The position numbers were made by a program, and so were the translations under genes. The notes beneath the pieces are model-generated. The model saw only the letters and a list, made by a program, of their open reading frames with translations. It searched no databases and was not told where the DNA came from. A stretch of 26,065 nucleotides of DNA from a virus: positions 1-26,065 of IMG/VR virus record IMGVR_UViG_3300047552_002587; one strand, written 5' to 3'. This document shows positions 1-26,065 of the stretch, one piece after another (within the stretch, counting starts at the first letter, position 1; each line of letters starts with the position of its first letter).

Positions 1-120
1 GGAGAGGGAGAGGGAGAGGGTGGACACGTCCGCTGTGTCGAAGGGGAGAGGGGAGCAGAGGGAAGGGGAAGGGTTAGGTGAAGGGTGGCTGGGGTTAGTT
101 GTGGGAGAGAGAGAGGGTTT
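1..120 (-). terminator. Candidate Rho-dependent terminator after the minus-strand operon
   Basis: RNA read leftward past the fibre gene stop would be C-rich, nearly free of G and full of YC dinucleotides, which is what a Rho utilisation site looks like. Across the 127-bp repeat I count 67 C and 8 G on the transcript strand, and six of the eight G lie in the 20-nt core. There is no GC-rich stem followed by a U-run, so an intrinsic terminator is unlikely. This role is inferred from composition and position only. Confidence 0.35.
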
Positions 121-127
121 TTAGAAA
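1..127. repeat. Left terminal inverted repeat, 127 bp, perfect
   Basis: Positions 1-127 are the exact reverse complement of 25939-26065; I compared the two ends block by block, and the first mismatch inward is position 128 (A, where the other copy would give G). The plus strand here is almost pure purine: three GGAGAG hexamers at 1-18, then a mixed core at 21-40 that can form a GACAC/GTGTC hairpin (23-27 with 35-39), then G-tracts at 43-46, 50-53, 60-62, 65-68 and 71-73 that fit a G-quadruplex pattern. The inner 7 bases include the stop codon of the fibre gene. The outer edge coincides with the window edge, so the repeat may be longer in the real molecule. Confidence 0.97.
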
Positions 128-1239
128 AGGTTTGAGACGTATTCTACTGTAAAAGGTTTTAGATCCCCTGCAATTGTCATATCATTAACTGTTGCTACAT
201 TTGAAGATACGTTTAAATACATTGCTAGTTTTACAGCTGTGGTTATCTTCTTACTTGCATAACCTGACTTTGCTAAGACATTCCCAGCAGGTTCATTATT
301 AGACTGTATCCTCAAAAGCAGTTCGTCATAAGCAAAAGTGTTATTTGCAGTGGATAGCCCTACAATTATAGATATAGCTGATGCAGATGTTGAAGTATTA
401 TAGCACCGAAAGTTAGGTATTTTTAAGTTCACATCCCAGCTGCCTACAGGGAGAGATATTACAGATAATAGGTTGTAGATAATGTTTATAACAATTCCAG
501 AAGCTGCTGTTTTTGTGTAGCTTGTGTTGTAGGAGGCTCTGTAGACCCATTTAGCAGCATCTGCGGGGAAACCAATAGGGAATTTAACATCTGAGTAATA
601 AGGGGAAGAGATTGCAGCATTTACTAAGGTGTAATCTGTTCCGCCGAATACAGTTATTACAGTTTCTACCCCATTATAAGCACCTACTAGAGTTACAATA
701 AAGTATTTAACAGTTGCAGATTGTGTGAGCTTTATTCTGAAACCTACTCCTATTACATTTGTCACATCCCCAGGGATTTTTATAGTAGCTGAGGGAGAGT
801 CTGTAGCCTCAAAAGTCCAAATACCTCCAGTAGTTTTCCAACTGGAAGTGGTAGAAGTTTGTACAGCCCAGTTTGCAGCAGTTTGCCCTGGGGAGTTGGC
901 AAGAGCTCTTACAGTTGAGTTGACAGGATAGTCTGTTAAAGCTCCAGAAGTTGCAGGTATTGAGATAGTCCAAATATCGCCTTTGAGGATAGCCCCTCCT
1001 GCCCCAGAACCGCCAGTTGTAGGGAATAAGTTTGTAGAAGCATCGAAGTTACCTCTGTCATCCCAGAGACCTACGACTAAGTTGTCGGCATAAGCGTTGG
1101 AGGCTGTAAGGTTTGCAACGAGTTCATCAGCTACACTGGTGAAGTTATCGTTTATTTTGCCAGCAGCATCATAAGCGGTATCTCCAGTGCCATCATTTGG
1201 AACTGTACCTCTGTTTATTGGGGTTATTGTTAAGGTCAT
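121..1239 (-). CDS. Tail fibre / tip-distal structural protein
   Basis: Encodes 372 aa. The N-terminus (about residues 9-33) carries the pattern RGTVPNDGTGDTAYDAAGKI followed by NDNF, a short adaptor motif that recurs at the start of many phage fibre proteins and probably anchors the fibre to the tail tip. The rest is rich in Ser, Thr, Asn, Gly and aromatic residues with no enzymatic motif, typical of beta-structured fibre domains. Its ATG overlaps the stop of the upstream tip-protein gene (ATGA), so it is translationally coupled as the last gene of the late operon. The stop codon lies inside the terminal inverted repeat. The fibre role rests on the N-terminal motif and position; receptor specificity cannot be read from the sequence. 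Confidence 0.7.
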   Translation of the reverse strand: MTLTITPINRGTVPNDGTGDTAYDAAGKINDNFTSVADELVANLTASNAYADNLVVGLWDDRGNFDASTNLFPTTGGSGAGGAILKGDIWTISIPATSGALTDYPVNSTVRALANSPGQTAANWAVQTSTTSSWKTTGGIWTFEATDSPSATIKIPGDVTNVIGVGFRIKLTQSATVKYFIVTLVGAYNGVETVITVFGGTDYTLVNAAISSPYYSDVKFPIGFPADAAKWVYRASYNTSYTKTAASGIVINIIYNLLSVISLPVGSWDVNLKIPNFRCYNTSTSASAISIIVGLSTANNTFAYDELLLRIQSNNEPAGNVLAKSGYASKKITTAVKLAMYLNVSSNVATVNDMTIAGDLKPFTVEYVSNLF

Positions 1240-3461
1240 AAGTCGTTATCCATAGTTGTAGTGGAGGAATCAAAAGTCCAGATACCATCAAAAGTTCTTG
1301 CAGGGCTTCCTGCGGATGAGGTAAAGTTATGGATGACTTTTTGAAAGCAGTCACCGTTTGAGTTTGTAGACTTTACTTCTAACCTGCCGTGAGTTGTGAA
1401 GGTATGTGCTGGGATGTATAAAGTGCAAGAAGTTGTAAATGTTTCTAAAGTTGCGATAAGTATAGTGTCGTCGTAGAGAGAGACTGTGTAGAGGATTCCA
1501 GCTTCAGAAGTTACACTATCTGTGTAGTATGAAAAAGGTTCAGCTGTTTGTAGGTAGCGATTTCTATGCGCCCAGTTTAGGGAGATGGTTGTCGCAGGTC
1601 TTTCAGGAGTCCAGTAAGAACCTTCTATTAGTAAATTACCTGGTGGGTAAGGTAAGTGCATTCTTCCTGAAAGGGTTATTGTATTTACAGGAGCTGAGGC
1701 AAGAGGTAAAGTTCCTTGAGAGGTTACGGTTAAGTTTTTAACTGAAACAATATCTCCAGCGAAGTATTTAGTTCTGTCAAGCCCTTGGAAATCTTCAATA
1801 CCTGCGAAGGTAGTGCCTATGGGGTGGATTTCAGGTACAGTGTCTAAGATTCCTCGCTTTACTTCAATTGTTTTTAGCGCAGTGTCTATGGAGGAAACAT
1901 GGACGAGTTCATCCCCTAGGGCTGCGAAAGAGCCGATTGTTAAAGAGCTTATATCTTCAACAGTGTTTATGTGTAAGGTTGTTGAAATTCTGTCAACTGC
2001 GGAGGTTAATTCAGCCCAATAAGAGAAATCTGTAGTACCGTTTTTTGCGTATGTAGAACCTAGAGTTGACCATAGTTCAGCTTCTATACTTGCAGGTGTT
2101 GGGGATTTAGCTGCTACGATATAGCCAGTTTCCATCGGTAGTACAGCTTGAGCCTCAGCATCCCCTTGCCAGATAGCTACAGCGTAATAAGGGACTTCAT
2201 AAAGTCTGAGGGAGTTTATAGGAACTGGAGGTGCTGTAGTAGGTTTCCAACGAGTTTCTTCATAGTCATATCCTGGGATGTCTGAGAACACTACAGGAGC
2301 AATGTTGAAGAAGTCTTCTATGAAATCGATTGCAATTGCTTCATCTTTAGCAGTTCCAAAGTTTATATTCTTAACCCTGAAGTATTTTTTAGAAGTTCCG
2401 AAGGCTTCAGGTAGTTCGAGAGAGAACATATCCCCAGGGTTTAAGATTTCAGCTTCTCGTGAGCATAGAAGCGAACCTGAGAATACGGGTAGTCCTAATT
2501 GCTGTAAATCTCGGTCGCCGATTATCTTTGCAACTCTTTGTGTGGAGATTCCTGAGTAGTTTATTGTTTGTAAAACTGAACCGCCCTGACGCGCGATAAG
2601 GGATATGTTCTTTGCAGTGTAAGAAGCTTTGTCGTAAGTACCGTTGTTTTCGTAGTTTATTTGAATCTCTGAGACTAAGTCAGTTAGAGATTTTCTGGAA
2701 AGGTTTTGGATTGTAACTAAGTTGTCTTCGTTTACTTGAAAAGTGCTGGCATCAGGAGTTTCATAGCGGATAAGTTTTATCATCCATAGACCTGTAAAAC
2801 GGTCTCGGTATATAGAGGCTTGGATATGTTTGGAAACTTCCTGAATGAAATCTTCGATAGAGGATTCTTTATCCCACAGGAAGGAGAAGCCTAGACCCTC
2901 TTCATGGCAGGTGTAAGCGGCACTTTCCCAAGAAGCTGTATCGATGGAGACTTCAGGTTCCCCTAAACCCCATTCGTCGTCAGTTAGACATTCTCGTAAA
3001 ACATGAACAGCATTTATTTCATTTGCAATTGGTGACATCTTTGCTGGATACCATTGAGGGGTTCCTCTGGAGCGTTTGGATATACGAGTCAGGGCAAATT
3101 CCCAGGGTTTCATGTAATAGTTTAACCCGATGTACATTTGTTGCAGGATGGCAGAGGTTATTCCTCGATAAGCTGGTATTGCTTCACCGATGCAGGATTG
3201 TAAGTATGCAGAAGGGGTTTGGCTGGGTGAACCGAATTGAGTTTCAAGATTCCCTGTTATGCCACCTTCGCGAGAAGTTCCTCCGAAAAGGTCAGGGCGG
3301 TTTATGTAGGTAAGACCATCTGCTGTAATTGGAGCATCTAAGAGTTCCTTTGTGTCTACGCGAATGGATAGAATAGCATCAGCGATGCCACTGCATATCA
3401 CGAAGTGCATACCGACATAGTAAGTAGATACTTTAACCTGATTGGATTTTTTTCTACTCAT
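1236..3461 (-). CDS. Tail tip / central fibre protein (Phage-tail_3, D3112-like)
   Basis: Encodes 741 aa. The N-terminal half reads like the conserved tail-tip protein of D3112-like phages and gene transfer agents: YVGMHFVICSGIADAILSIR near the start, then LFGGTSREGG, PWEFALTRI, a Trp-Tyr-Pro segment and an AVHVLRECLTDDEWGLG block. These proteins close the tail tube at the baseplate and act like lambda gpJ. The second half (about 400-741) is beta-rich and contains segments such as SSLTIGSFAALGDELVHVSS, consistent with Ig/FN3-like receptor-proximal domains. It overlaps the 87-aa gene upstream and the fibre gene downstream by 4 bases each (ATGA at both junctions). Family assignment is from remembered motifs, not from a search. 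Confidence 0.75.
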   Translation of the reverse strand: MSRKKSNQVKVSTYYVGMHFVICSGIADAILSIRVDTKELLDAPITADGLTYINRPDLFGGTSREGGITGNLETQFGSPSQTPSAYLQSCIGEAIPAYRGITSAILQQMYIGLNYYMKPWEFALTRISKRSRGTPQWYPAKMSPIANEINAVHVLRECLTDDEWGLGEPEVSIDTASWESAAYTCHEEGLGFSFLWDKESSIEDFIQEVSKHIQASIYRDRFTGLWMIKLIRYETPDASTFQVNEDNLVTIQNLSRKSLTDLVSEIQINYENNGTYDKASYTAKNISLIARQGGSVLQTINYSGISTQRVAKIIGDRDLQQLGLPVFSGSLLCSREAEILNPGDMFSLELPEAFGTSKKYFRVKNINFGTAKDEAIAIDFIEDFFNIAPVVFSDIPGYDYEETRWKPTTAPPVPINSLRLYEVPYYAVAIWQGDAEAQAVLPMETGYIVAAKSPTPASIEAELWSTLGSTYAKNGTTDFSYWAELTSAVDRISTTLHINTVEDISSLTIGSFAALGDELVHVSSIDTALKTIEVKRGILDTVPEIHPIGTTFAGIEDFQGLDRTKYFAGDIVSVKNLTVTSQGTLPLASAPVNTITLSGRMHLPYPPGNLLIEGSYWTPERPATTISLNWAHRNRYLQTAEPFSYYTDSVTSEAGILYTVSLYDDTILIATLETFTTSCTLYIPAHTFTTHGRLEVKSTNSNGDCFQKVIHNFTSSAGSPARTFDGIWTFDSSTTTMDNDL

Positions 3462-3721
3462 AGCTTTTTAACCCCTGTGAATTTGTAGCGAATGATGTCT
3501 TCAGCGATAACATCTTTTGTTTCTAAAAGAGTTTCTACAGAAAGTCCTTGACGAACCGCCACCCGCCATGAGATTTTATTAGCATCACAAAAAGTTTTCC
3601 AGCCACTGACACAACCGCCATAAGCTGAACAATCACTTACAGTTATGATTTCTTTTTTATACTTATTAAGGTTTTCTTTTTCATTTGATTTTTCATCAGA
3701 CCCTTTACCTGAGTTTTTCAT
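3458..3721 (-). CDS. Small tail-tip operon protein, 87 aa, function unknown
   Basis: An 87-aa protein with a Lys/Glu/Asn-rich, probably disordered first 25 residues, followed by a compact domain with a Cys pair (SDCSAYGGCVSG) and the pattern WRVAVRQGLSVETLLETKD. A small protein of this type (Cys-containing turn, then a Trp-Arg segment, then G-(L/I)-x-x-E-x-L-x-x-T-x-D) lies directly upstream of the tip protein in D3112-like phages, where it has no established function. The start is supported by an AGGAA Shine-Dalgarno 4 bases before the ATG, overlapping the region just after the previous gene's TAG stop. It overlaps the tip-protein gene by 4 bases, which suggests a chaperone or accessory role for that protein; this is inference. 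Confidence 0.6.
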   Translation of the reverse strand: MKNSGKGSDEKSNEKENLNKYKKEIITVSDCSAYGGCVSGWKTFCDANKISWRVAVRQGLSVETLLETKDVIAEDIIRYKFTGVKKL

Positions 3722-3729
3722 AACAGTTC

Positions 3730-3963
3730 CTATTTCTTTTTAGCAGTGTCAGCTTTAACTTTTAAAATCCTTAAATCTCCATACCATGCTATTTTAGGAG
3801 ATTTTATCATCCGCGTTCCGAAGAGGACTGGTAGGTTTTTACCAACTTCTACTGAAGGTATTTCAAAAGTTTTATCTGGAGTTGGTGCAGTCTTTTTACT
3901 CTTCTTAGAGAACAGGTAAAAGATTGGGGTTAGTATTAGGTTTATAAGTCCAAGCCATTCCAT
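3730..3963 (-). CDS. Small membrane-anchored tail-tip operon protein, 77 aa
   Basis: A 77-aa protein with a hydrophobic N-terminal segment (WLGLINLILTPIFYLF, about residues 3-18) followed by Lys-rich residues, then the motif VGKNLPVLFGTRMIKSPKIA leading into a Trp-Tyr-Gly-Asp sequence. That P-V-x-F-G-T...W-Y-G-D pattern is characteristic of a small protein encoded just before Phage-tail_3 tip proteins in D3112-like phages and related prophages. The ATG shares one base with the TAA of the upstream gene (TAATG). The hydrophobic segment could be a transient membrane contact during assembly or infection. The precise function is unknown. Confidence 0.6.
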   Translation of the reverse strand: MEWLGLINLILTPIFYLFSKKSKKTAPTPDKTFEIPSVEVGKNLPVLFGTRMIKSPKIAWYGDLRILKVKADTAKKK

Positions 3964-4691
3964 TAGAGTAGTCCTGTAGAAGAGGTCGGGTTAGTCGCAG
4001 GGATATAAGGAAAGCCGCCGAAATTATCCAGATTTGAAAAACCTAGGCATGAAGTTCTGGTTAAGGAGCATCCTTTTCGTAAGGTTAAAGTTCCAGAAGC
4101 GGGAAGGATGAAACCATCAGATATTCTAACTCCAGTTGCTGAGGATGTTAAGATTCCTCTAATCTGGTTTCCTATAATTGCGATACCGCCTGCGAAGTAG
4201 TTATCAGGTTTACCAGTGCTAAGGGTTATATTAGTACCATCAAGGGTATAGACTGCATATGGCGTGGAAAATGCAGAGGCATCTACCCCACAAGCTGTAG
4301 AGTATAAAGTCTTCCAACAGTAAGGTGAGAATTTAGCACCAGCCATTTTTCGGAAAACTGCATTATAACCTGAGTCACAGGATAAGGTTACTAACATACC
4401 TTTTAATTCAGCTTTTACAATCCTACCCTTCCAGAAAAGTTTGCCATCTTTAAAAACCTCAACTATAAGCTGGTCTTCAATGAAGTTATCTACACAACTT
4501 CTAGCGAAAGAGTTTGTAACAGGGAAGGAAAAAGTTACCTCACTTTTCATTAGGTTCTCATGGAGCTGGATGGAGCTACGAGAGCATACTGTAGGTGGGT
4601 AAGTGACACCGTCCAGAGTTTTTGTAAAAAGGTTTGGGTTGAAGGGATATTTAATACCCTGAACCGTTGAGAATAGGTATAGTTCTGACAT
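3963..4691 (-). CDS. Tail assembly protein, BR0599 / DUF2163-like
   Basis: Encodes 242 aa from the ATG at 4691, which gives MSELYLFSTVQGIKYPFNPN and sits directly behind the upstream stop (TAAGATG). The C-terminus, CSLTRTSCLGFSNLDNFGGF followed by PYIP, is the hallmark of the BR0599/DUF2163 family (Cys...Cys...F-x-N...N-F-x-G-F-P). In gene transfer agents the equivalent protein builds the hub of the tail tip and is encoded just before the peptidase and tip genes, the same position as here. Further Cys residues occur mid-protein (SPYCWKTLYSTACGVD). An in-frame ATG at 4745 with an AAGG upstream would add 18 residues ending in a Cys-Arg-Cys sequence; that start would overlap the upstream gene by 53 bases and is less likely. 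Confidence 0.75.
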   Translation of the reverse strand: MSELYLFSTVQGIKYPFNPNLFTKTLDGVTYPPTVCSRSSIQLHENLMKSEVTFSFPVTNSFARSCVDNFIEDQLIVEVFKDGKLFWKGRIVKAELKGMLVTLSCDSGYNAVFRKMAGAKFSPYCWKTLYSTACGVDASAFSTPYAVYTLDGTNITLSTGKPDNYFAGGIAIIGNQIRGILTSSATGVRISDGFILPASGTLTLRKGCSLTRTSCLGFSNLDNFGGFPYIPATNPTSSTGLL

Positions 4692-4692
4692 C

Positions 4693-6720
4693 TTAATACA
4701 CCGACAGTGTGTTTGTTGAAGTATTTGGGATATATAATTTCCCATCTGAACCTTCGATTACTTCTCCAGGGAAGGGGGAGGATATACTTCCCATAACTGT
4801 ACCAAGGAGCGGGTTGACAAGCAGGACAATATTATCTCCAGCACAGGAGATTGCTAAGAAGCCACTTGCTAAAGCTGTTATGTAAATAGGGGAATAACCA
4901 AGAGGATAAGTTGCAAGGATTATTCCAGAACTGCGGGATACTTTGGAAAGTGTCTGTGCACTAGGGTTAGTTACCCAGATATAACCATTCATCAGGCATA
5001 CATGTCTTCTGGTCGCTCCAATGTTTAGGGACAGAGGTATTGTCGCTAAAACTTCTAAAGTTGTTGGGAGAATTTTGTATAAAAACGCAGCTCCTACAGC
5101 CCATAGGAATACTCCGTCGAAGTACATTGAGGTTAGACCTGTGTCTACAATTGTAGTTCCTATAGCTTCAACAACACCAGAAAAACTAACTCGGTACATA
5201 CTAAGCTCTGAGGTGTAAGTGAGGATTCCATAAGGGCTGTAAGCAAGCATTATAGGTACACCTGTCATTGGTGCATAACATACATTTACAAGAGTCCCAG
5301 TTTTTGTATATTTCGCAATACCTGGATTTCCAGAATCCCAGTGAAGTTCCCATATAAATGTGCCATCAGAGACAATTCCACCGAAGCGCACACCAGAACC
5401 TGGGTCTTTATGAGGGATTCCAGTTATGATAGGGATTAGAAGTCCAGTGCTTAAGGAATAGGAGTATATAACTCCCTCCCCTTCGATGAAGATATGGTCA
5501 GAGTCTTTAGCCGTCCATATTCCGCCTGTTAAAGGTAGTTGGATTCTCAGGGAATACTTCGGCGGATACAGGGCATTTATATGTTTATTCGAGGTTATTG
5601 CGGTTAGAGCAACTGAACATATTTTTTTATTCTTGTAAGCAAAAGTTATGCTATCACTGTTTAACCTGACAAGGTGTAGAAATTCTACAGTATAGATGTC
5701 AATAATATCTTCTGTCGGAGGGGTATCGATTAGGATATGGTCAGTTGTATAATCAATTGAAGTTATCGCAGATATTTTTAAATAATATTTCCCAGCTTTT
5801 GTTCGCAGAAGTATATATCTATCCGCTGAAGGAAGTTTTGTAGGGTAGGTTACAAGTGTTGTCGCACCTGCAAGAATTGTTGAATCCTTCAAACGAATAT
5901 CTTTAGTTTTTGTAGGAAACCAAAAGAGCTCAGCTCTACCTTTTAAAACAGACAACGTGTCTTTTAAAGTTTTTATCTCTTCTCTTTGCTGGGTGGAGAT
6001 TGTGAAACTGTAATTTTGGCGAGCATAGTTTTCTGCTTTCAGAACTTCGGACAGACCTAGGTCACTAGCAGCCATTTCAAAAGCTTGGGTATATCTGTGT
6101 TCTATCGTTGTTGAGGTTTGCAGGGGTAGGTCTAAGACAGGGTACTCAGCGAAATAGTCTGGAATTACTGGGAAAATTGTAGGGGCATATCTGTAAAACC
6201 CTCTGAAAGATAGTTTTGCTGAGAAAGAACTACCAGAGGAATCAGAAAAGGAAACCCCTTCTGTGAGGAATCCTTTTACCAGAGGGATAAGCCAAGCTTT
6301 TGCAAAATCTCTACTCACAGGAGCTGTTAAAGTGAATATGGTGTCCGAAACCCCAGCTATAGTTACAACTTCCCAATTAGCAGGGCTTTCAAAGAGGAGA
6401 AAAGTTTTCTCTTCCGCAGGGTATTCTATGGAGGAAAGTATACAGGATATTGAAGAAACCCCAGCGGTAATTGCTGGAAAAAGAGCATACAAATGCCACA
6501 GAGGTAAGTAGAAGGTGTCTAATCCAATTCTCTCTGCTAAAGCTTTTGCATAAGCAAATTCCTCCGCTGAACGGAAGTTGAAAGTATAGTTTGCATAATA
6601 TACAGGCTGCTCTTTGTAGGATTCTAAACTTTCTGAATTTCTACAGCCGATAACAGTCGTCCCCCATTCAAAAACTTCTTCAAAAGTTGTCAGAGGAGCT
6701 ATTGCGAATACATCTGTCAT
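4693..6720 (-). CDS. Distal-tail-like protein with duplicated N-terminal domain fused to a seven-bladed beta-propeller
   Basis: Encodes 675 aa. The first ~380 residues hold two copies of one fold-like unit: residues 43-75 (YTFNFRSAEEFAYAKALAER...LPLW) and 235-275 (YSFTISTQQREEIKTLKDTL...LFWFPT) match in pattern, and each is followed by similar beta-rich stretches (to about 180 and 378). An aromatic-Phe-x-Pro ending of this kind is common in hub proteins encoded right after the tape measure, in the slot of DUF2460 in gene transfer agents. Residues ~385-675 look like a beta-propeller: seven roughly spaced hydrophobic strands include FIWELHW, FLWAVGA, YIWVTNP, FLAISCA and KLYIPNT. The gene overlaps the tape measure gene by 4 bases (ATGA). 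The propeller is presumably exposed and could bind a surface ligand. Confidence 0.65.
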   Translation of the reverse strand: MTDVFAIAPLTTFEEVFEWGTTVIGCRNSESLESYKEQPVYYANYTFNFRSAEEFAYAKALAERIGLDTFYLPLWHLYALFPAITAGVSSISCILSSIEYPAEEKTFLLFESPANWEVVTIAGVSDTIFTLTAPVSRDFAKAWLIPLVKGFLTEGVSFSDSSGSSFSAKLSFRGFYRYAPTIFPVIPDYFAEYPVLDLPLQTSTTIEHRYTQAFEMAASDLGLSEVLKAENYARQNYSFTISTQQREEIKTLKDTLSVLKGRAELFWFPTKTKDIRLKDSTILAGATTLVTYPTKLPSADRYILLRTKAGKYYLKISAITSIDYTTDHILIDTPPTEDIIDIYTVEFLHLVRLNSDSITFAYKNKKICSVALTAITSNKHINALYPPKYSLRIQLPLTGGIWTAKDSDHIFIEGEGVIYSYSLSTGLLIPIITGIPHKDPGSGVRFGGIVSDGTFIWELHWDSGNPGIAKYTKTGTLVNVCYAPMTGVPIMLAYSPYGILTYTSELSMYRVSFSGVVEAIGTTIVDTGLTSMYFDGVFLWAVGAAFLYKILPTTLEVLATIPLSLNIGATRRHVCLMNGYIWVTNPSAQTLSKVSRSSGIILATYPLGYSPIYITALASGFLAISCAGDNIVLLVNPLLGTVMGSISSPFPGEVIEGSDGKLYIPNTSTNTLSVY

Positions 6721-9700
6721 ATCAAAGACTCCGAATTTCTAGTCATGTGGTTTACTATTATCGACTCACCTTCAGTAGAAGTCAAATATTTTCTAAAATC
6801 ATCCCCATAACCTACGTTTACTATTTTTACAGCTTTACCAGAACTGTTGGAAATGTTGTTAATAGTTTGCATAAGTTGTTTGTTTTGCCCAGGTGCTAAA
6901 ACTCTTTCCCCTTTGGTGAGTTTGTAGGTGGCATTTTCAGGAACATATTCTAAACCTCCGTGAGCCTGAGGCATTGGTTGGGAAACAATTTGGGCAATCT
7001 GTGCAGCTCCCATTGCAGCGGCTAGACCAGCTAGGATTGTACCCATAGGAGGAGGAACTTCCATAGCTGCCATTACTGCAACTGCGGTTGACATTATTAC
7101 CTTAGCAGTTGCGTTAGCTTTATAGAGGGCAAAAGCTATCCTCGCCTGTTCGCTTTCTGCACCGTACATCTTAATCATACTTTCGGTGATTCCTGAGAAA
7201 GCATCTGCGGCAAGTCCAGCGATACCTGAATAGTAATTTGCGTTTAACATTGAACCCGCAGTTGCGTATTTTTCCCGTATGCGCAAAATCTCTTGCTGTT
7301 TCGCTTCTTCCGCCAGAACACTTTTAGAGGCAATATCTAATTCCTGAGCAAGACCTTGGGATAGATTATTCTGGTCTCTTTGATATTGCTGGTAATCATT
7401 AGGTATCTGAGATTGGATATAGTTATTAGCAGCTCCAGCGTTTGGATACCTTACTTGTGACAACTGCATCCTAGCTTCTTTAGCTTTTAAAGCTTTCTGA
7501 GGATTTCCCTCAAGTTCAGCAGCTTTTTCCAACACCACCACATATCTCTCAGCTTCTTCAGTATAAGCTTTTCTAGCTTCAGTTAGTTGAGCAATTGCTT
7601 GTTGTTCAGAGATATAACCTGTTGCTTTAAGATTAGCAATTTCCTGCTCACGCATTTGGAAAGCTTCTCTGGCTATACTTTGCTTAGCCTCCAGGTCAAT
7701 TGTTTTCGCTTGCTCAAGTTGTAAACTTCTACGAGTTTTTAAAAGTTCTAAAGCTTTTGTGTTTTCAGGAATTCCTTTCTCTTTATCTGCGAGCAGGGAT
7801 TTGCGTTCTCTTAGATATGCAACTTCAATTTGAGCTTCAGCAGATGCCTGTTTGCCACCACGAAGTCCGTCAATTTGTGCATTGAGTTCTTCGATTTTCT
7901 GGGCGAAAGCTTCTTCTTGAGCTATGCGTTTATCTGTCAGGTCTTTTTGTAAAGTTGCTTGGGCTAAGGCATAAGAGGATTGGATTGTCGCAGTTTTACC
8001 TGATTCTTCTCTGACCCTGACCTCACTTTCCATAGTTGCTTGGGTGTATTTATCAAGCAGGTCTCCTGTTTTTCCTTTCTCGTCGTAATATTTGAGAACT
8101 GTAGGGACATAATCTCTGGTTTCTTTTGTCAAACCTGAGAGGAAATTCTCTCCAAAAGATTTCACAGCTTTATCCACAGCCCAAGGACCAGCGTTATAAG
8201 CTGCTAAAACTTTAGGTATATTTCCATTATACCTGTCCATAAGTTGAGCAAAATACTGTTTAGAAGATTCTAAAAGAGCAGCTTGGTTAGCATCCACAAA
8301 CTCTACCAGAGGTCTTTTTATAGCTTCTGGAAGGGTGTAGTATTTCTTAGCCTTATTCCCTTTATTTGCAGCGTCTTGAAAAGCTTTGGCAGAAATTTCT
8401 AAAGCAAGAATATCCTGTGGAATCGGCATAAAAGCTTTAGCTGTAGAAGGCATAATCTGCCCCAACCCTAAAGCCCCTACAGGAGACACTTGTGATTTCT
8501 TAAACTGAGATTCATGCTTCATAACAGCGGCGAACAGCTTATCATTATCCGTAATCTGCTCACCGATTTGTTTACTTACAAGTTTAGCACCTTCGGATTG
8601 TACTTTTTGCAGCTCCAGCTCAAGTCGTATCTTCTCCGTCTGCATTTTAACATCCATGTCATGTTTTACAGCTAAGAGTTTGGAGTTTATAATCCCCTGC
8701 TCAGCGGAACTCTTTGCACTAAGTAGTTGTGTTTTGAGTAAATTCTCCTGAGTCGCTGCTTCCTCTCTGATAGCAGATTGTTTTTCCTGAGAAGCTGCTT
8801 GCACTGCTTTGGTAGAGTCATCTAGGAGTTTTGTTTGAAATTCAAACTGTCTTTGCGACATTCCTAGTTGTTCGTCAGTTATAACCTTAGCGGTTTCTTG
8901 CTCCATTTTAGCTTCAGTGTCGAGCAAGTCTTTCCTAGCAACAGCTCTGGATTCTAAATATTTCTTAAAAAGAAAAGCTTCATTTTCCTGGGAGTTTGTT
9001 AGGTTTACATTAAGGTCTTTTAATGCAGCTTTAGCAGCTTCTACAGCTGGGGAAAACCCGCCTACACCTACGTTTAGAATTTTGTTATTAACAACATCCT
9101 GAGCTAAAGCTATACGCTCTTGAATGTCCAAAGTCTGCTGTGCAGCTTCATTGTACATTTTTTGAGCTTCAATAACTTTCTCAGATTTGGATATGTCAAA
9201 ATTAACCTGAGCCTCTGGGGAACTCTTAGCACCCGCCGCCGCAGTTTCAGCATCTTGAATATCTTTAACATTCTTAGCAATTCGCTCTGCGGTTTCTTGA
9301 ATTTGTTGCCACTTGACATATACCGCAGATGCAGCTGCTAGGAGAGCAACCAAACCAATCCCTACGCTATTCGCAGCGATAAAAGAGCCTACGCCTTTGA
9401 GAGTAGTGCTTAGAGTTGTAGCAGCTGCATTGAAAAACCCCAATCTCTGCACAACTTCCAAAGCCATTAGGGTTTGCATAGATTTTACTAAATACAACAC
9501 CCCTGCACTGCCAGCAAGAGCTACGATAGTCGCTTTAACAGTTGTCAAACTCTTATCTAAACTATCACCTTCTTCGATGAAAAGTCTGAACTGTTCCAAA
9601 CTTCCTGTAACCCATTTGGTAATGTCTATCAGCATTGTTGAGGTAGATTTGTAACCAGCTTCACTTAGAAGTTCCCAAGAGGTGGACAACCTGCCAAGAC

Positions 9701-17574: not shown

Positions 17575-17639
17575 AAAAACCTCGAAACAGTTAATATTAG
17601 AATGAAGTAGTGCTGGTTATAAAAAACCACACCCCAGTT

Positions 17640-18911: not shown

Positions 18912-20286
18912 TCTTACCACCTTTACTATCTGAAATTGTTGTTTTTAAGATATTATGCTTAGGATTACTTTCCAGCACAATTTCATACCCTTGTTCCAGC
19001 ATCAACTGCTTCATGTGAGCTTCTACATCCTCAACACCGCGCTCACCCAGTTTTTCCTCAAGCGTAGCAAAACCTGCTCTAACCTCTAGCAGGTCAGCTT
19101 GAACATCCTTCAACGGGTCTACCCATTCCTCTTTAGGAAGTACGAATTTACATTTAGCATCTGCAAATGCTTGGGAAACGTAAACACTGCCAAGTTCTTT
19201 AAACCTTTCCGTCAGCGGTCTCATAGCTTGGGTTATGAATATCAACTGCTGTGTAGTAGCAACTTTTTTACGAACTTCTATAGTCCCTGCTCGAATGGAG
19301 CTGAAATTAACATTCGACAAATCACCTGTAATTTGCTCATAAGTTTGTTCCAAAGCTGCCGCACATAAGCGAGTTTGATACTGCAACAAAACCGCCAGAT
19401 TAGTCCCAATATCCTCAATCTTAGCAAATTCAAATCTTTCCCCGTGTCTGAGATAATGAATACCCCCAGGTTTAATTCTCTCCAACCTTGTACTATCCTC
19501 AGAGTCATCAGCACTTTGCCTACCATAAGGATTTTCTATATCTCCTATAAGCGGCTGTTGAAAACCTGTTTCTGTATAAACTATCCAACCTACGCCAGTA
19601 GCAGCTTTTTGACGAACTAAAGTAGCATCTGCTAATTCATCCATTTCATACATCGGCAGTATCACACCTGATAGTAACGGTATGCCTCGCCATTGCCCAG
19701 GTCTAATTCTTTGAAAGATATGTAAAACATCTCTAGCTTCCAGAGGGACTATTGTATTCATCTCCCTAGCGATGTAATCATTTGGGTAATGTTTCCAGAA
19801 ATTATACTTCAGCGGCTTTCCATTAGTATCAAAAGTTATTCCATACCGCATGTCTAACCCTTCAAACTTTCTTATATCCAACTGTTCTGTTGCAAAAGTT
19901 TGTAGCATTAAAGGAACTTTTCTACCTGGAGAATCCATAAGTTTCATATAGGAAAAAATTTCCCCAGATTCAAAATACCCATTAGCCCATAAATGCTGGG
20001 TGCTTGTCATATCACCCCAGCCATCTATATTAGGAGCTGCCCAGAACTTATCCCATTCCTTCTGTACAACTTTATTATTCCATTTAACCTTAATCCCATT
20101 ACCAATCCAATGATTTCTTGCATTACTCTGAGCTGTAATTGCTAAAGCATTATTTCTGCACAAATCATGACTTCTTCTGCGCAGCAGTTCTATCTCTCTC
20201 AGAGCAATTCTATCCGAACTACCGCTAAGCAACCCTTTTCTTTCCAGCCGATAACCTGTATCAGCTCCATCATAACCAATACTCAT
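18895..20286 (-). CDS. Portal protein, lambda GpB family
   Basis: A 463-aa protein with family traits of the lambda portal: an Arg-rich N-terminal helix with LRRRSHDLCRNNALAITAQS, then ARNHWIGNGIKVKW, a wing segment with DVLHIFQRIRPGQWRGIPLL, and ITGDLSNVNFSSIRAGTIEV, which matches the conserved D-L-S-x-V-N-(Y/F)-S-S-I-R signature. The portal forms the dodecameric ring at one capsid vertex through which the terminase pumps DNA and to which the tail attaches. It is somewhat shorter than lambda gpB (533 aa) because the C-terminal clip/crown part is short. The ATG overlaps the gpW-like gene's stop (ATGA). Confidence 0.9.
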   Translation of the reverse strand: MSIGYDGADTGYRLERKGLLSGSSDRIALREIELLRRRSHDLCRNNALAITAQSNARNHWIGNGIKVKWNNKVVQKEWDKFWAAPNIDGWGDMTSTQHLWANGYFESGEIFSYMKLMDSPGRKVPLMLQTFATEQLDIRKFEGLDMRYGITFDTNGKPLKYNFWKHYPNDYIAREMNTIVPLEARDVLHIFQRIRPGQWRGIPLLSGVILPMYEMDELADATLVRQKAATGVGWIVYTETGFQQPLIGDIENPYGRQSADDSEDSTRLERIKPGGIHYLRHGERFEFAKIEDIGTNLAVLLQYQTRLCAAALEQTYEQITGDLSNVNFSSIRAGTIEVRKKVATTQQLIFITQAMRPLTERFKELGSVYVSQAFADAKCKFVLPKEEWVDPLKDVQADLLEVRAGFATLEEKLGERGVEDVEAHMKQLMLEQGYEIVLESNPKHNILKTTISDSKGGKNAQSK

Positions 20287-20549
20287 TTTTTACTCCAAGC
20301 AACTCTGTGGTGGGTTTTACGAAAAAGGTCTCCAGAAGCTTCAGGTTCTAAATCAATAAGCTCTCTCTTCAGACGATTTATTTCATCTATAAGCACCTGC
20401 TCATTTATTTCATTGTATCCGTACTCTCTTCTATTAACCCCAGTTCCTATAACATACTTCGTAGCAACTTCCCCTTTTAAATACTTCTTTAAGGTTAGTT
20501 GATACTCCAACAACTCTGCCTCAAGAGCTGCTTTATCTACTGTAGCCAT
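20283..20549 (-). CDS. Head-tail joining protein, gpW-like
   Basis: An 88-aa protein (lambda gpW is 68 aa) that starts with a helix (KAALEAELLEYQLTLKKYLK), has a short beta-hairpin region (TGVNRREYGYNE) and a second helix (EINRLKRELIDLE), the alpha-beta-alpha layout of gpW. It lies between the terminase and portal genes as in lambda. The family's function is to plug or adapt the portal after DNA packaging so that tails can join. AGGTGA is 4-5 bases before the ATG, four bases after the terminase stop. Confidence 0.75.
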   Translation of the reverse strand: MATVDKAALEAELLEYQLTLKKYLKGEVATKYVIGTGVNRREYGYNEINEQVLIDEINRLKRELIDLEPEASGDLFRKTHHRVAWSKK

Positions 20550-20553
20550 GAAA

Positions 20554-22512
20554 TCACCTAATGTCTAACCCTGGAGCTACATTACTTTCACGCCCCACAG
20601 TATTTTTATGAACGGTAGCAACAATACTGCTTTCCAGTTGCTGCCAATGTTTTTCAGTATACAACTGTATCCCTAGTGCATGTTTTGAATGTTCACAAAG
20701 TACAATACAGTCTAAAGCTTCGTCCCTTTCCCCAGGTGTCAACTCATATCTCGGAGGATTTCCTTTTTTATAATTACTCAGTAATTGGTTTTCAAAATCT
20801 TCTCTACAACTTTGATATACAAAAATCCTATCCCTGCCACCAGTTAAAGCTATACGTCTGAGAATATCACTCTTCCCTTTCTGCACACCTACATGATACA
20901 CAGTAACTCCCATAGTCTCCATAACTCTTTTGCGAAGGTCTTTATCACCTGCACCTTCGGGATTAACAGGAACTGTAAAAATTTCCTTCTCTGTAAAACC
21001 TGCGGAATGGTCACCTTTTGTGGCATAAGTATGTGGGTTTATCTTACACATCTGTTGAACCCAACGATAGACAAGGCGTACAGTATTACCATCACCTGAG
21101 TCAATGCTTATACCAGAAATTGGTAAATTTATATCCCTGTCTACAGGTGAAAGTTCATGCCTAAACTTCCCTAACATAAGCTTCGTCAGATGCTCCCAAA
21201 CTGGGTCTTCTGGGTCTTTCACATAACCAAACAGCTCTCCCCAATATATAACCCAAGAGTTATTACTCCTTCCATGTGCTGTCAACACAACTGCAAGCCT
21301 ATTCCACTGCACATCTACCCCTGCGGTTATAATCAAACCCCCAGCAGGAACAGTTTTTTCTTCATAAAAAATTCTTTGAGCTTTCAAAGCTTCCGCTGTA
21401 ATATCACTAACATTTTCCTTATAAGAAAGTCCCATAGAGTTGTTGGTGTAACTCTTTAACTTCCCAGGTTTTCCTTTATCCTTCTCCACCAAAGCTTCTA
21501 ACCAATTCTTTTTCAGGTTATACAAACTACTACCTGGCAGAAACGTACTCATCAATTCATTAAAAGCGAAACCGATAAAATGACTTTCCGCTGTAGGAAC
21601 CCAGCCTAAATCATGAAACTCTGTACTTGATACTAAGTTATTATTCAGCTCCTTATCACCCCATCTCTCTAAACAGTGCGGGCATTCATAATAAGCTGTC
21701 TCAGGGTTATACCTGCCAAAAGTTTTATCAATCTTTCCACCTGGGTAAGTATCTGCCTTTAACTGCGAAAACCCCAACACATGGAACTTTTCACAAACAT
21801 GACAAACTACCATAAACACCATTTTATTGCTCAGTTCATAAGCATCGTCTACATTAGAACTGCCCTCTTCCACAGGTGTACCACCATAAACTAGCAAACT
21901 ATTCGGAAAGGTTTTACTTCTTTGCAGGAATATATTAAGTGCATTCCCCTGACCTTTTAAATCTTGCTTTAACCCATCAGGTTCTTCCACAAACAGTATA
22001 GGAGCTGAAGAACTTTTAAGCGCATTATCACTAGCAGCAGAGACTAAACTCAACCACCCACCTGGGTATTTAAAAAAGTCATACCTGCACTTATCTGGGT
22101 CTCCGATTCGAGTAAGCAGTGCTGTGGAATTTCTAATAGCAACTCTAAGCTTTTCTTCAGTGTACCGTTTTATCAACGCATCTGAAGGGAAAGCAATCAT
22201 TATATTCTGAGGGTCTTGAACAATAACTCTTTCGATAAAAAAGTTATTTATCTGTGTCCAGCCAAACTGAGCAGGTTTCTTAGCAATAATAACCTTAGTC
22301 TCTGGGTCGTCTACATACTTCAAATACGCCAGCAAACAAGGGGTTTTTAATAAGTTAACACGACCTGGGTCAGATGTTACTTCTGGGGACAGGTAAATAT
22401 ACTTCTCTGTATACTCCCTTGTATTCAACCTTTCTGGTGCAAATAGTTGTTGAAACAAAGTCCCTAAAAAGTTCTCCGCTACAGCAATCTCTAAACCCCC
22501 TAACTCACTCAT
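20554..22512 (-). CDS. Terminase large subunit, lambda GpA family
   Basis: A 652-aa protein (lambda gpA is 641 aa). The deviant Walker A is AKKPAQFGWTQ (residues 77-87) and the Walker B is PILFVEEPDG (171-180); a coupling-type LLVYGGTPVEEGSS follows at 206-219. Two CxxC pairs (C237/C240 and C277/C280) sit before the nuclease domain, as in many GpA proteins. The nuclease begins at AGVDVQWNRLAVV with D400 as a likely metal ligand and D471 in ISIDSGDGN as a second. It powers DNA packaging into proheads and cuts the genome ends. The ATG overlaps the small subunit gene by 8 bases. The GpA type usually goes with cohesive-end packaging. Confidence 0.95.
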   Translation of the reverse strand: MSELGGLEIAVAENFLGTLFQQLFAPERLNTREYTEKYIYLSPEVTSDPGRVNLLKTPCLLAYLKYVDDPETKVIIAKKPAQFGWTQINNFFIERVIVQDPQNIMIAFPSDALIKRYTEEKLRVAIRNSTALLTRIGDPDKCRYDFFKYPGGWLSLVSAASDNALKSSSAPILFVEEPDGLKQDLKGQGNALNIFLQRSKTFPNSLLVYGGTPVEEGSSNVDDAYELSNKMVFMVVCHVCEKFHVLGFSQLKADTYPGGKIDKTFGRYNPETAYYECPHCLERWGDKELNNNLVSSTEFHDLGWVPTAESHFIGFAFNELMSTFLPGSSLYNLKKNWLEALVEKDKGKPGKLKSYTNNSMGLSYKENVSDITAEALKAQRIFYEEKTVPAGGLIITAGVDVQWNRLAVVLTAHGRSNNSWVIYWGELFGYVKDPEDPVWEHLTKLMLGKFRHELSPVDRDINLPISGISIDSGDGNTVRLVYRWVQQMCKINPHTYATKGDHSAGFTEKEIFTVPVNPEGAGDKDLRKRVMETMGVTVYHVGVQKGKSDILRRIALTGGRDRIFVYQSCREDFENQLLSNYKKGNPPRYELTPGERDEALDCIVLCEHSKHALGIQLYTEKHWQQLESSIVATVHKNTVGRESNVAPGLDIR

Positions 22513-23152
22513 TTTCAGATTCCTCTGAGCTTTCCTCCCCAGGGATTATCTCTTCATTCAACTTATCCTGTATAAACGTCTCAAAAACCCCATTTGCATT
22601 CTTAACCATCTCCTCGCCTATTTCCTTCCATGTATTCAAAACGCTATCAATCTTATCCCTAGTCTCTGGGTAAGCGCGAGTTATTGCCACCAGTTGCCCT
22701 CTCATACTTACAAAATAAGGTTCAAAAGCCATTAATAAAACTTTACCGTCTATAGCTTCCTTTTTCTCCTTCGCAACTGCAAGCCATTCCCTTTCCGTCT
22801 TCGCTTTATTCAATTTAATCTTCTGAATCAAATCTTCTTCTGCGATGTTAGAAGTCTTTTTAACAGCTTTAGCTTTCCAATACTTAACATGATGTAAAAT
22901 ACACTCCCTGTAAGTTGCGTCAGTGTTTGAAGGCAGTTTCCCATCCTGTCTATATTGATACAGCATTGAAACATTACAACCTAAAAGTCCTGAAAGTATT
23001 GCAGGCGAAACCGCAGAATCCAAATCAACTTTAAGAACATTTCTAGCTATTTTTTCAGAACTGTCATAATGACTTATCTTACGCTGCTGAGCTTCTCCAG
23101 CATCTTCCAGAATCGCATCTATGAAACTTTCTGTACTATCTTTCGGGTTCAT
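22505..23152 (-). CDS. Terminase small subunit, Nu1-like
   Basis: A 215-aa protein with a likely helix-turn-helix near residues 48-75 (VSPAILSGLLGCNVSMLYQY then RQDGKLP), followed by the family-like helical segment EEDLIQKIKLNKAKTEREWL and an acidic C-terminal tail (GEESSEESENE) that would contact the large subunit. Such proteins bind the packaging site and load the large subunit. It is the first gene of the minus-strand late operon, 71 bp from the divergent plus-strand gene. The ribosome binding site is weak (GAGAG). No cos-like sequence is obvious next to it. Confidence 0.75.
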   Translation of the reverse strand: MNPKDSTESFIDAILEDAGEAQQRKISHYDSSEKIARNVLKVDLDSAVSPAILSGLLGCNVSMLYQYRQDGKLPSNTDATYRECILHHVKYWKAKAVKKTSNIAEEDLIQKIKLNKAKTEREWLAVAKEKKEAIDGKVLLMAFEPYFVSMRGQLVAITRAYPETRDKIDSVLNTWKEIGEEMVKNANGVFETFIQDKLNEEIIPGEESSEESENE

Positions 23153-23223
23153 TATTGACTCTCTATATATAAGGTATAAAATCTACTTTACAATGAATTT
23201 TCACCAAAAACAAGGGGATGATT
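23153..23223. promoter_or_regulatory. Divergent intergenic region with candidate promoters for both operons
   Basis: This 71-bp AT-rich spacer is the only place from which both operons can start. For the plus operon a candidate is TTGACT (23155-23160), 16 bases, TAAAAT (23177-23182). For the minus operon a candidate is TTGTAA (23193-23188), 16 bases, TATATA (23171-23166). The two overlap, so firing of one would hinder the other. No clear operator palindrome is visible beyond the TATATA run. AT-rich sequence gives such matches by chance, so the position is better supported than the exact boxes. Confidence 0.4.
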
Positions 23224-23595
23224 ATGGAAGAAACTGGATTAAACGTTGTAAAAGATATAGCAAATCTAGGTGCAGTCGGCTCTCTGTTAATCCTATCTTG
23301 CTATGGACTGTACAAAGGAATACTTTACATCATCGGGTATTCCAAAGAACGAATGACTCAGGTAGAAACTTTGACAAAAGAACACGCTGAAGCTATTGAT
23401 AAAATCCACAAAGAGTATCAAGAGCAGCTCCGTACTACCGCAGAAACCTTTAACAAAGAACGGGCAGACTTACTATCCTCTTGGAATGCTGAGAGAAAAG
23501 AATCTCTAGTCGCTCTGAACAACTTAACCCAAACCGTCCAGAAAATGTATGACCTCGTAGAAAAGCGCGACGGTAACATTGAAAGACATTCTTAA
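23224..23595 (+). CDS. Membrane protein with long coiled coil; holin- or spanin-like candidate
   Basis: Encodes 123 aa from the ATG at 23224, chosen because AAGGGG (23212-23217) lies 6 bases upstream; the earlier ATG at 23218 abuts that sequence and cannot use it. The protein has one transmembrane segment at about residues 15-38 (GAVGSLLILSCYGLYKGILY) and then ~75 charged residues forming a coiled coil (KEHAEAIDKIHKEYQEQLRT). One helix plus coiled coil is seen in inner-membrane spanins and in some holin-associated phage proteins; no partner outer-membrane lipoprotein or endolysin is present. It starts the plus-strand operon. The function is open. Confidence 0.6.
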   Translation: MEETGLNVVKDIANLGAVGSLLILSCYGLYKGILYIIGYSKERMTQVETLTKEHAEAIDKIHKEYQEQLRTTAETFNKERADLLSSWNAERKESLVALNNLTQTVQKMYDLVEKRDGNIERHS

Positions 23596-23618
23596 ACTGT
23601 AACCTTTAGGAAAAACCT

Positions 23619-23921
23619 ATGAACTGCATTCACATTCACACCTCCCCCCTGCATCGCGGAAACCTTGCAATCCCTGTTGCTATGCAATTTGATGAACCTC
23701 TGAACCTATTCCTAACCCCAGATTCAGACGACAATCCTCAAAATCAAACATCGTCTTTGGTTCAGGTAATTGCGCCCGCTGACGTTATAACAGGCATCCG
23801 TAGAAATTCATCTGAAATCCTCTTTACAGGTTTCAGCCCTACAAATATTATCCTCGCCCCAGGTGATTCTTTGCTAACTACAGCTGTATCTGGTGACCTT
23901 TACTTCTTGCCCCTTTGGTAA
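23619..23921 (+). CDS. Small beta-rich protein, 100 aa, unknown
   Basis: A 100-aa protein starting MNCIHIHTSPLHRGNLAIPV, with AGGA 8 bases before the ATG. It is rich in Pro, Asn, Thr and beta-branched residues and ends in a run of short beta strands (SSEILFTGFSPTNIILAPGD then LYFLPLW). No signal peptide or membrane segment is seen. The ending resembles the style of small phage beta-sandwich domains, like the one in the next gene. As it sits in an operon ending with a surface beta-propeller protein, a virion component or fibre accessory is a reasonable guess, but I do not recognise the family. Confidence 0.6.
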   Translation: MNCIHIHTSPLHRGNLAIPVAMQFDEPLNLFLTPDSDDNPQNQTSSLVQVIAPADVITGIRRNSSEILFTGFSPTNIILAPGDSLLTTAVSGDLYFLPLW

Positions 23922-23926
23922 TTCCT

Positions 23927-24400
23927 ATGCCAACAAAAGCTGAATTAAAAATAATCGAACTTCTTGAATCTATGTCTGGAGGCTCCCCAGGTGGTTCAGG
24001 TAGTTCTGTAGATTTCGGTACTAAAGCCGATACACCTGCTGCTACTGACATAGGAACTTTCAGTTTCCTAGCTTTCTTCAAAAGAAGTTTGCAGAAATTA
24101 ACAGCTCTTATCGCTACCCAAACAATAACCCACAGCACTCTACCATATTCCGTAGATGTATCTGATACCAACCATCAAAGTCCTGCATTTGCTGTAAACT
24201 CCTCCAGAGTAATCCTCACCTCAAATGCAGATTGCTGGGTACGTTTAGGCTCAGCCCCTGTTGCAACTGTTGGTGGGATAGGTTCATTCCTAGTCTCCGC
24301 TGGAATCCCTACTTACATCACAACCATAACCCCTGGAGAAAAACTAGGAGTTATCAGTGCTGGGGTTTTGGGGTTGTTATCTGTGCAAGAACTTATCTAG
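23927..24400 (+). CDS. Putative structural protein with C-terminal phage beta-sandwich domain, 157 aa
   Basis: Encodes 157 aa from the ATG at 23927; a TTG at 23915 would overlap the preceding stop and is less likely. An N-terminal helix (TKAELKIIELLESM) leads to a Gly/Ser linker, a second helical stretch (FLAFFKRSLQKLTALIAT), and a C-terminal domain with the pattern SRVILTSNADCWVRLGSAPV, then FLVSAGIPTYITTITPGEKL and a final GLLSVQEL. Small phage virion proteins commonly use this arrangement (a strand with A-D-x-W-V-x-x-G, then a P-A-G-x-P-x-Y turn, then P-G-x-K-x-x-x-I). It is probably a minor structural or fibre-associated protein; the exact role is unknown. Confidence 0.6.
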   Translation: MPTKAELKIIELLESMSGGSPGGSGSSVDFGTKADTPAATDIGTFSFLAFFKRSLQKLTALIATQTITHSTLPYSVDVSDTNHQSPAFAVNSSRVILTSNADCWVRLGSAPVATVGGIGSFLVSAGIPTYITTITPGEKLGVISAGVLGLLSVQELI

Positions 24401-24411
24401 GAGCTGCCGTC

Positions 24412-25971
24412 ATGCTAACCCCCAAAGGTCTTAAGAAACGTGAAGTTTTGCCTCCGAGTTTGCGACAAACCCCAGGTAATAAGCATACGACACTTGCAAC
24501 CCCTGGGTATATCTGGGTTACAAACACAGGAACTCAAATGCTAGAACGTATAAACACTACAACTCTTGAAGTTGTTATGTTTGCTTCTGGGGGAGGCACT
24601 CCTGCAGGTATTGCTTTTGATGGAACACATCTCTATGTCTCTCACTTCTCCAGTGGTAATATTACAAAAATGACCACCACTGGTGAAGTGCTTGCCTCTT
24701 ACCAAATTTCCTCTGGCTTGCATCAGATTGTTTTTGACGGGGTAGACCTGTGGGTTACTTCTTACTATGAAGGTAAAATTTACAAACTCTCTACCTCAGG
24801 AACCGTTCTTTTCATTTATGACTCAGGTAGATACCCTGTAGACTTAACAGTTGCTGATAATAAAATATGGGTAGGTTTATTCAACTTCACCTTCTACCCT
24901 TTTGGTGCTGGAGGACTTTTAAAACTTAACAACAATGGAACTTTAAACGCTGAATACCCAATCGTGGAAAACCCTTTAGGTATAGACTTCGGGGACAATC
25001 ATATCTGGACAGCAAACTTCCTAACAGGTGATGTTTTTAAAGTAAATGCCTCAAATGGAACTGTAGTTTTAACATTTAACACAGGAATTCCAGACTCTGC
25101 AATCCTACACCTTTCATACTCAACTTATGGCAATTATATCCTGATAACAATTTCAAAAGACTATTCCTCCTACAACCTTCCAAACAGTGAAAATGTAGTT
25201 CAAATACGTTCAGCTGCTACAGGTGCTCTTATAGAAACTGTACCAGTTGGTATAGACCCTAGAAATGTAAGCATCGATGAGTTCCACTGGGGTTATGTCG
25301 CAGGTTATGGAGACGGTACTGTTACTAGATTCCCTCTCCCAGCACCTGGAGTATCCTATGACATATTTCTACATTTCGATACTTTCCCGTTCACCAACAG
25401 CGGCGACTTACCTGTAACAATAACTGCCCCAGAGACGCGCTTTACTTCAGACCCTGCTAGAGTTATTGAAGGTTCAGGTTCTGCCATATCAAACAGAGGT
25501 AGTGGAAATCTTGACCAAGAGACTATACAGGTTTTCTCAACTGACGCTATAACCCTTGGTGACCAGTGGACAATTCGCTTTAAAGCTACTATAAATGCTC
25601 CTACAATGGGGGTAGGTATCTTAACCCCTTGGACAGGTTCTGCAATAGAAAGCGTCTCTATAATCTCCGCAGCTTCTCTTTATGTAATGCAATTCACCGC
25701 TGCTATTGCTGTACCAATAACACCAGGAATTCCTCAATTATTCTCAATAGAGCTTTTTGAGGGAAGTCTTTATATCTATCTGGATGGTGTACTTAAAGGA
25801 ACTCAGTTATACAACGACCCTCTCTCAGGTTTGCCAATACCTCCTATGACATTATCAGGCGGTTCTCGACTGTTTTCTATCGGCGGTACAGGTAATGACA
25901 TAGCTGAGAACCAGCAAACAATTATAGATGAGCTTATCTTTCTAAAAACCCTCTCTCTCTCCCACAACTAA
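24412..25971 (+). CDS. Seven-bladed beta-propeller plus concanavalin-like domain; candidate fibre/adhesin
   Basis: Encodes 519 aa; the ATG at 24412 is preceded by AGGAG with 8-base spacing, and an open frame further upstream is out-of-frame overlap with the previous gene. Residues ~30-310 show seven repeats, each with an inner strand: IWVTN (34), LYVSH (74), LWVTS (113), IWVGL (152), IWTAN (198), ILITI (243) and WGYVAGY (293), as in YncE/NHL-type propellers. Residues ~315-519 look like a LamG/concanavalin-type jelly roll (DIFLHFDTFPF, WTIRFKATINAP, SLYIYLDGVLKG, TIIDELIFLK). Both folds bind sugars or surface ligands, so host attachment is likely. The last 11 codons lie inside the terminal inverted repeat. 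Confidence 0.7.
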   Translation: MLTPKGLKKREVLPPSLRQTPGNKHTTLATPGYIWVTNTGTQMLERINTTTLEVVMFASGGGTPAGIAFDGTHLYVSHFSSGNITKMTTTGEVLASYQISSGLHQIVFDGVDLWVTSYYEGKIYKLSTSGTVLFIYDSGRYPVDLTVADNKIWVGLFNFTFYPFGAGGLLKLNNNGTLNAEYPIVENPLGIDFGDNHIWTANFLTGDVFKVNASNGTVVLTFNTGIPDSAILHLSYSTYGNYILITISKDYSSYNLPNSENVVQIRSAATGALIETVPVGIDPRNVSIDEFHWGYVAGYGDGTVTRFPLPAPGVSYDIFLHFDTFPFTNSGDLPVTITAPETRFTSDPARVIEGSGSAISNRGSGNLDQETIQVFSTDAITLGDQWTIRFKATINAPTMGVGILTPWTGSAIESVSIISAASLYVMQFTAAIAVPITPGIPQLFSIELFEGSLYIYLDGVLKGTQLYNDPLSGLPIPPMTLSGGSRLFSIGGTGNDIAENQQTIIDELIFLKTLSLSHN

Positions 25972-26065
25972 CCCCAGCCACCCTTCACCTAACCCTTCCC
26001 CTTCCCTCTGCTCCCCTCTCCCCTTCGACACAGCGGACGTGTCCACCCTCTCCCTCTCCCTCTCC
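25939..26065. repeat. Right terminal inverted repeat, 127 bp, perfect
   Basis: Exact reverse complement of positions 1-127, so here the plus strand is C/T-rich. The inner 33 bases encode the last ten residues and stop of the propeller gene, in a different frame from the one the fibre gene uses at the left end; the DNA is therefore conserved independently of the protein it encodes. The G-tracts lie on the minus strand. The core GACACAGCGGACGTGTC can form a 5-bp hairpin. Confidence 0.97.
25972..26065 (+). terminator. Candidate Rho-dependent terminator after the plus-strand operon
   Basis: The transcript running past the propeller gene would be C-rich and very G-poor, the same composition as at the left end, because the two ends are inverted copies. 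The only secondary structure is a short GACAC/GTGTC stem without a U-run. A Rho loading site is the simplest functional reading, inferred from composition and location alone. Confidence 0.35.

Follow-up and report, generated by a model that had tools for sequence, protein, structure and literature searches.

Introduction

Inverted repeats flank phage DNA in the invertible loops of phage P1 (C-segment) and phage Mu (G-segment), where they sit within the tail fibre genes, next to the gene for a serine invertase. Identical inverted ends are also a feature of the phi29 and PRD1 types of phage, which use protein-primed replication and have no terminase of the GpA type. Terminases of that type package cohesive or headful ends. 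In other replicons, the inverted repeats of plastid DNA and of the yeast 2-micron plasmid are identical within a genome, diverged between species and have edges that differ from one species to the next.

Terminal repeats of length k are also known from de Bruijn graph assemblers. In the CheckV study, the lengths of direct terminal repeats were found to accumulate at the k values of assemblers, and high quality was reached by 33.2% of contigs with inverted terminal repeats vs 90.0% of those with direct terminal repeats (PMC8116208). The JGI pipeline runs metaSPAdes with a k list of 33, 55, 77, 99 and 127, the last being the maximum (PMC11584781).

Here we analyse the inverted repeat at the ends of an entire IMG/VR contig of 26,065 bp, hereafter the window, and compare it with related phages. 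As in P1 and Mu, the repeats flank phage DNA and an inversion is conceivable, but they are located beyond the 3′ ends of the late arms, with the entire virion module between them, and no recombinase was identified within the window. The identical inverted ends recall phi29 and PRD1, whereas the module encodes a GpA terminase and the terminal element is internal in relatives. The likeness to plastid DNA and the 2-micron plasmid lies in the within-genome identity, the divergence between species and the shifting edges; these are, however, different replicons, and for the phage of the window isomers are only a possibility. The nearest TerL proteins in the GenBank phage set (∼32% identity) belong to Marinobacter phage PS3 and Pseudomonas phage KT1, which have a similar head-gene order. 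A search of these two phages for an inverted repeat flanking the module found none in either.

Results

Self-comparison of the sequence showed that bases 1–127 of the window are the exact reverse complement of bases 25939–26065, the left copy being G/A-rich on the + strand and the right copy lying on the − strand. The match ends abruptly, with identity lost at base 128, and the inner edges are at 127/128 and 25938/25939. The perfect 127-bp inverted ends with an abrupt inner edge described in the original prediction were thus confirmed. No further repeat of at least 20 bases was found in the window. The GC content of the repeat is 59%, compared to 40.6% in the entire window.

A second IMG/VR contig, 3300042988_002344 (20,400 bp), corresponds to window positions 5666–26065 with 0 mismatches over 20.4 kb and has the same end base, 26065. 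Given this matching end, the right-hand cut is reproducible between two metagenomes, which may be related samples. When the inner, middle and outer pieces of the repeat were searched in IMG/VR, only this sister contig was matched. One 28-mer of the repeat was absent from the GTDB genome contigs, and a blastn search of the repeat against phages and plasmids gave no match. The proposal that the repeat is common to several segments of a divided genome gained no support, as the 127-mer occurs in no other IMG/VR contig. An origin by library tailing or from an adapter was ruled out, since a homologous element is internal in the related contig G002 (see below).

The gene content was assigned using Pfam and PHROGs. 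The leftward late arm (121–23152, − strand) encodes a TerS-like protein (22505–23152), assigned from its position, TerL with GpA ATPase and nuclease domains (20554–22512), a lambda-type portal (18895–20286), an S49 protease (17640–18920), capsid E (16073–17122), the tape measure (6717–12359), the tail tip (1236–4745) and a tail fibre-like protein (121–1239), and a neck protein is also among its products. The rightward late arm (23218–25971, + strand) has four ORFs: a coiled-coil/membrane ORF (23218–23595), two small ORFs and a gene for a beta-propeller-like protein (24412–25971), whose final codons and stop (25969–25971) fall within the repeat. By eye, beta-propeller-like repeats are seen in proteins of both arms (4693–6720 and 24412–25971), of which only the latter matches Vgb_lyase, below the curated cut-off.

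The GpA terminase, lambda-type portal, S49 protease, capsid E, tape measure and baseplate/tail proteins justify the earlier label of a virion module, and TerL, the portal and the HK97-type head and tail genes agree with Caudoviricetes. The two domains of TerL do not fit a protein-primed linear genome, which would be packaged without an HK97-type terminase. In the window, the tail-tip block is on the leftward arm, after the tape measure; in relatives G002, G003 and G047 it lies on the TerS-side arm, on the opposite strand. Tail genes thus move between the two late arms among relatives.

No replication, integration or recombinase genes were found in the window. Likewise, neither a protein-primed DNA polymerase or terminal protein gene nor a site-specific invertase gene was found within the window; such genes may lie in DNA outside it. 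Among the relatives, Rep3 initiators are present on the same contig in G010, G011 and G044; the G022 contig encodes thymidylate synthase, ligase and MazG, and the G043 contig a UvrD-like helicase, DNA polymerase A and ribonucleotide reductase. Since the window is without the replication genes that relatives carry on the same contig, it is most likely part of a genome. Plasmid-type Rep3 initiator genes in the flanks of G010, G011, G013 and G044 are oriented inward next to the late module, a hint of plasmid-like replication in this group of phages. In the same four contigs, a small leader gene is found repeatedly upstream of flank genes that differ. In G043, an intein carrying an HNH endonuclease domain splits the ribonucleotide reductase gene (24031–26862).

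The repeat itself contains an inward-reading ORF, which we call gene x. In the left copy its 3′ end (ERERERVDTSAVSKGRGEQREGEGLGEGWLGLVVGEREGF, followed by the stop) occupies 2–124 on the + strand, with the 5′ end outside the window; the mirror copy (25942–26064, − strand) follows from the identity of the two repeat copies. The TAG stop at 122–124 overlaps the TAA of the left late gene. Gene x would encode a small, E/G-rich product, and at either end it faces the final gene of the late arm head-on. Homologs in G002, G005, G050 and G047 share a C-terminal motif, LG[ED]GWxW or GMLGW[LW]G, and the frame in the window reads ...EGLGEGWLG... at this place. The homologs are found at the end of the TerS-side arm in G002, G005 and G050 and at the end of the tape-measure-side arm in G047. 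Near the C-terminus, synonymous and replacement codon differences are mixed between G005 and G050, a pattern that favours a coding region. Indels between the window and G002 shift the frame, which makes the reading frame of gene x less certain. Stop codons are scarce in G/A-rich DNA, and the open frame by itself is weak evidence for the gene.

Upstream of gene x, a block of 98 bp is shared by G002, where it is in the flank on the TerS side, and G047, where it is in the flank on the tape-measure side (72%, E = 3e-12). From these alignments, one cassette occupies either arm in inverted orientation in this lineage, reaching ∼500 bp outward. A comparison of the genes beyond the cassette gave no protein match between G002 and G047; different genes come next.

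On the strand of the late transcripts, the repeat is C-rich, G-poor and YC-rich. This stretch starts right after the stop codon of the right late gene (25972–26065, + strand; C/G 6.75) and is mirrored at 1–120 on the − strand (C/G 8.25). The C>G skew of 25972–26065 was equalled by none of the 51,436 inner 94-nt stretches of the window. In terms of composition, the stretch is rut-like and a candidate Rho-type terminator region; the skew may also simply result from the E/G-rich coding of the opposite strand. An intrinsic hairpin terminator was ruled out for the window, where the folding energy was no better than that of shuffled sequences. The stem-loop of G005 is strong, compared to a weak one in the window.

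A small inverted motif, GACAC-N7-GTGTC, is located at 23–39 (+ strand) in the left copy, with its mirror at 26027–26043, and its core GGACACGTCC is kept in G002. A search with GGACACGTCC..TGTGTC matched 20 contigs, of which only the sister contig and G002 had the purine-rich context. We therefore rejected conservation of the motif beyond these two, as the remaining matches look like chance. In G018 and G032 the sequence becomes C-rich 118–124 nt before the contig end. These two ends are weak support for the cut pattern, because the C-rich end of G018 is fibre coding sequence matching G043. A partner-arm contig of G018 was searched for and not found.

The relatives had been collected by TerL. 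In G002 (TerL 54%) a copy of the element is present at 1039–1136, at the stop of the outermost late gene and in the same orientation as in the window. It matches the repeat of the window with 72% identity over 100 bases (score 87, vs a maximum of 67 in 1000 dinucleotide shuffles). The contig continues outward for 1.0 kb past the element, through an ORF (852–1136), an intrinsic-terminator-like hairpin and a gene at 2–577. In G047 (TerL 56%) the corresponding site is on the opposite arm and the sequence continues outward for ∼4.7 kb; G050 continues for 0.4 kb. In G005, the contig end lies 126 nt beyond the last late stop codon. G005 and G050 are 95% identical over 3.5 kb; the homology is lost in the fibre gene and resumes at 5130, which is 128 nt before the end of G005. 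Where G005 stops, its sister G050 runs on outward. Of the options originally put forward, that of an inverted repeat pair within a larger genome agrees best with the data, as the element is internal in G002, G050 and G047; the flipping of the 26-kb segment that formed part of this option is possible.

Two further repeat structures were observed in the relatives. Beyond the late arm of G047, at ∼23.05–23.76 kb, there are AGCTATGCAAAGAAT-type repeats and a long imperfect palindrome (23565–23689), possibly an origin or recombination site. G043 has an imperfect inverted repeat (74–124 and 29111–29160) with a strong sigma70-type promoter on both copies, consisting of TTGACT, a G-rich spacer and TATAAT.

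G044 (3300042882_000356, 35,318 bp, TerL 41% identical) is likewise bounded by a perfect inverted repeat of exactly 127 bp. The window and G044 are the only contigs with two copies; every other relative displays one arm. The content of the G044 repeat differs from that of the window and is the start of an inward Rep3-type gene, which is full length on the TerS side (18–749) and truncated on the tape-measure side (35050–35301). Its inner edge, GAATTG, is common to the congeners G013 and G014. From this edge to the contig end, the distance in G014 comes to 97, which becomes 99 should the two following bases be shared as well and may then reflect another k of the JGI pipeline. G010 ends in a leader sequence, and its similarity to the other junction of the congeners stops ∼127 bp from the contig end.

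G044 and G014 are 96.6% identical over 28.9 kb. The repeat copies are identical within G044 and 6–8% different from G014. We infer recombination between the copies as the simplest reason for this identity; a recent renewed duplication may give the same picture. In the window, the right late gene stops at a site conserved with G002 (TAACCCCAG, positions 95–97 of the repeat), and the left late gene stops a few bases within the repeat edge. The conserved stop of the right gene, together with the truncated tape-measure-side copy in G044, suggests that copying went from the TerS side to the tape-measure side.

In both the window and G044 the terminal repeat is as long as the top k of the JGI pipeline (127), a comparison that assumes this pipeline for the metagenome of each relative; the record of the window names no assembler. 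The caution in the original prediction that 127 is an assembler k-mer length has become stronger, with exactly 127 in the window and again in G044, and with G005 ending at 126 nt past the stop codon. The window resembles the direct terminal repeats examined in CheckV (PMC8116208) in that the repeat length equals k and a single k-mer bounds the contig. In contrast to these, its k-mer is inverted, which points to a real inverted repeat and not to a closed circle. A contig bounded by one inverted 127-mer is the expected graph output for a repeat of at least 127 bp at both ends. As the repeat has the length of the top metaSPAdes k and terminal repeats are known to peak at k, the contig is most simply a graph segment that was cut at a longer repeat.

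Discussion

Taken together, the data suggest, with a probability of roughly 0.64, that the inverted repeat of the window represents the innermost 127 bases of a longer inverted repeat flanking the virion genes, and that the fragment is part of a bigger genome. The phage genome would then exceed the window, and its divergently transcribed late module would be flanked on both sides by inverted copies of one cassette, composed of a promoter-side block, the small inward gene x and the opposite-strand C-rich end of the late transcript. With copies identical over at least 127 bp, an assembler using k = 127 would be unable to choose a flank and would cut 127 bp past both inner edges. The inner edge would coincide with the 3′ end of the outermost late gene of each arm; there, late transcripts would run head-on into transcription from the flank, and the C-rich, G-poor stretch would suit transcription termination. 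Both copies would be in one genome and, by analogy with G002 and G047, would extend ∼500 bp outward. This extension beyond the 127 bp is extrapolated from relatives with 50–56% TerL identity. The copies may have arisen by copying of the TerS-side flank onto the tape-measure side and recombination would keep them alike; the same recombination could flip the module.

A linear genome or genome segment, with a true terminal inverted repeat of 127 bp or longer kept identical by the replication mechanism, could also account for the perfect identity of both ends, the end base shared with a second assembly, the copies that are identical within G044 despite their difference from G014, and the G044 genes that read inward from both ends. 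We regard such true termini as unlikely and this part of the original prediction as unsupported: the element is internal in relatives, with at least 1.0 kb of outward sequence in G002, 0.4 kb in G050 and ∼4.7 kb in G047, the module encodes a GpA-type terminase, and a terminal repeat of exactly 127 bp in each of two diverged phages would have to match k by coincidence. The tail-tip genes that moved between arms in the relatives indicate that alternative arrangements exist in nature, and two co-existing genomes or isomers, each with gene x at one end of the module, might have been merged by the assembly graph. This is quite improbable for copies that are identical over 127 bp and each continue into a single 26-kb path, with a second contig free of mismatches over 20.4 kb and the pattern recurring in G044.

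Slightly less probable again is a palindromic junction, either a circle of ∼26 kb in which two inverted copies of gene x abut at the closure, or a foldback/hairpin product of biological origin or of amplification. The same contig structure would result, the outer sequence being unseen, but the window is without the replication genes carried by relatives, its right-hand cut is reproduced in the second contig, and differing genes follow the cassette in relatives. A host or unrelated interspersed repeat (REP/MITE-like) that flanks a prophage fragment by chance might be expected to have the low-complexity, G/A-rich composition seen here, which is unlike that of the module. We consider it highly implausible, as a homologous element occurs at the same gene junction in phage relatives. 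The searches of viral contigs, GTDB contigs (28-mer) and, by blastn, phages and plasmids found the repeat only in the window and its sister contig and lent no support to a host repeat.

A longer inverted repeat flanking the virion genes in a bigger genome is thus the reading that we prefer. A bolder reading, which we put forward tentatively and consider less likely than not, is a clade of GpA-terminase phages whose whole virion module is bounded by a long inverted repeat that is homogenised and has edges varying from species to species, the genomes existing as two flip isomers or as linear molecules with real inverted ends. We know of no such architecture in terminase-packaging phages.

Viral catalogues take inverted terminal repeats as a sign of completeness, and a repeat of length k can mark one part of a larger genome. 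The identical inverted copies around the complete virion module of two diverged phages suggest that the flanks still recombine with each other. If true, this recombination would provide a testable route by which the module might be flipped and tail genes might pass from one late arm to the other, as seen among relatives.
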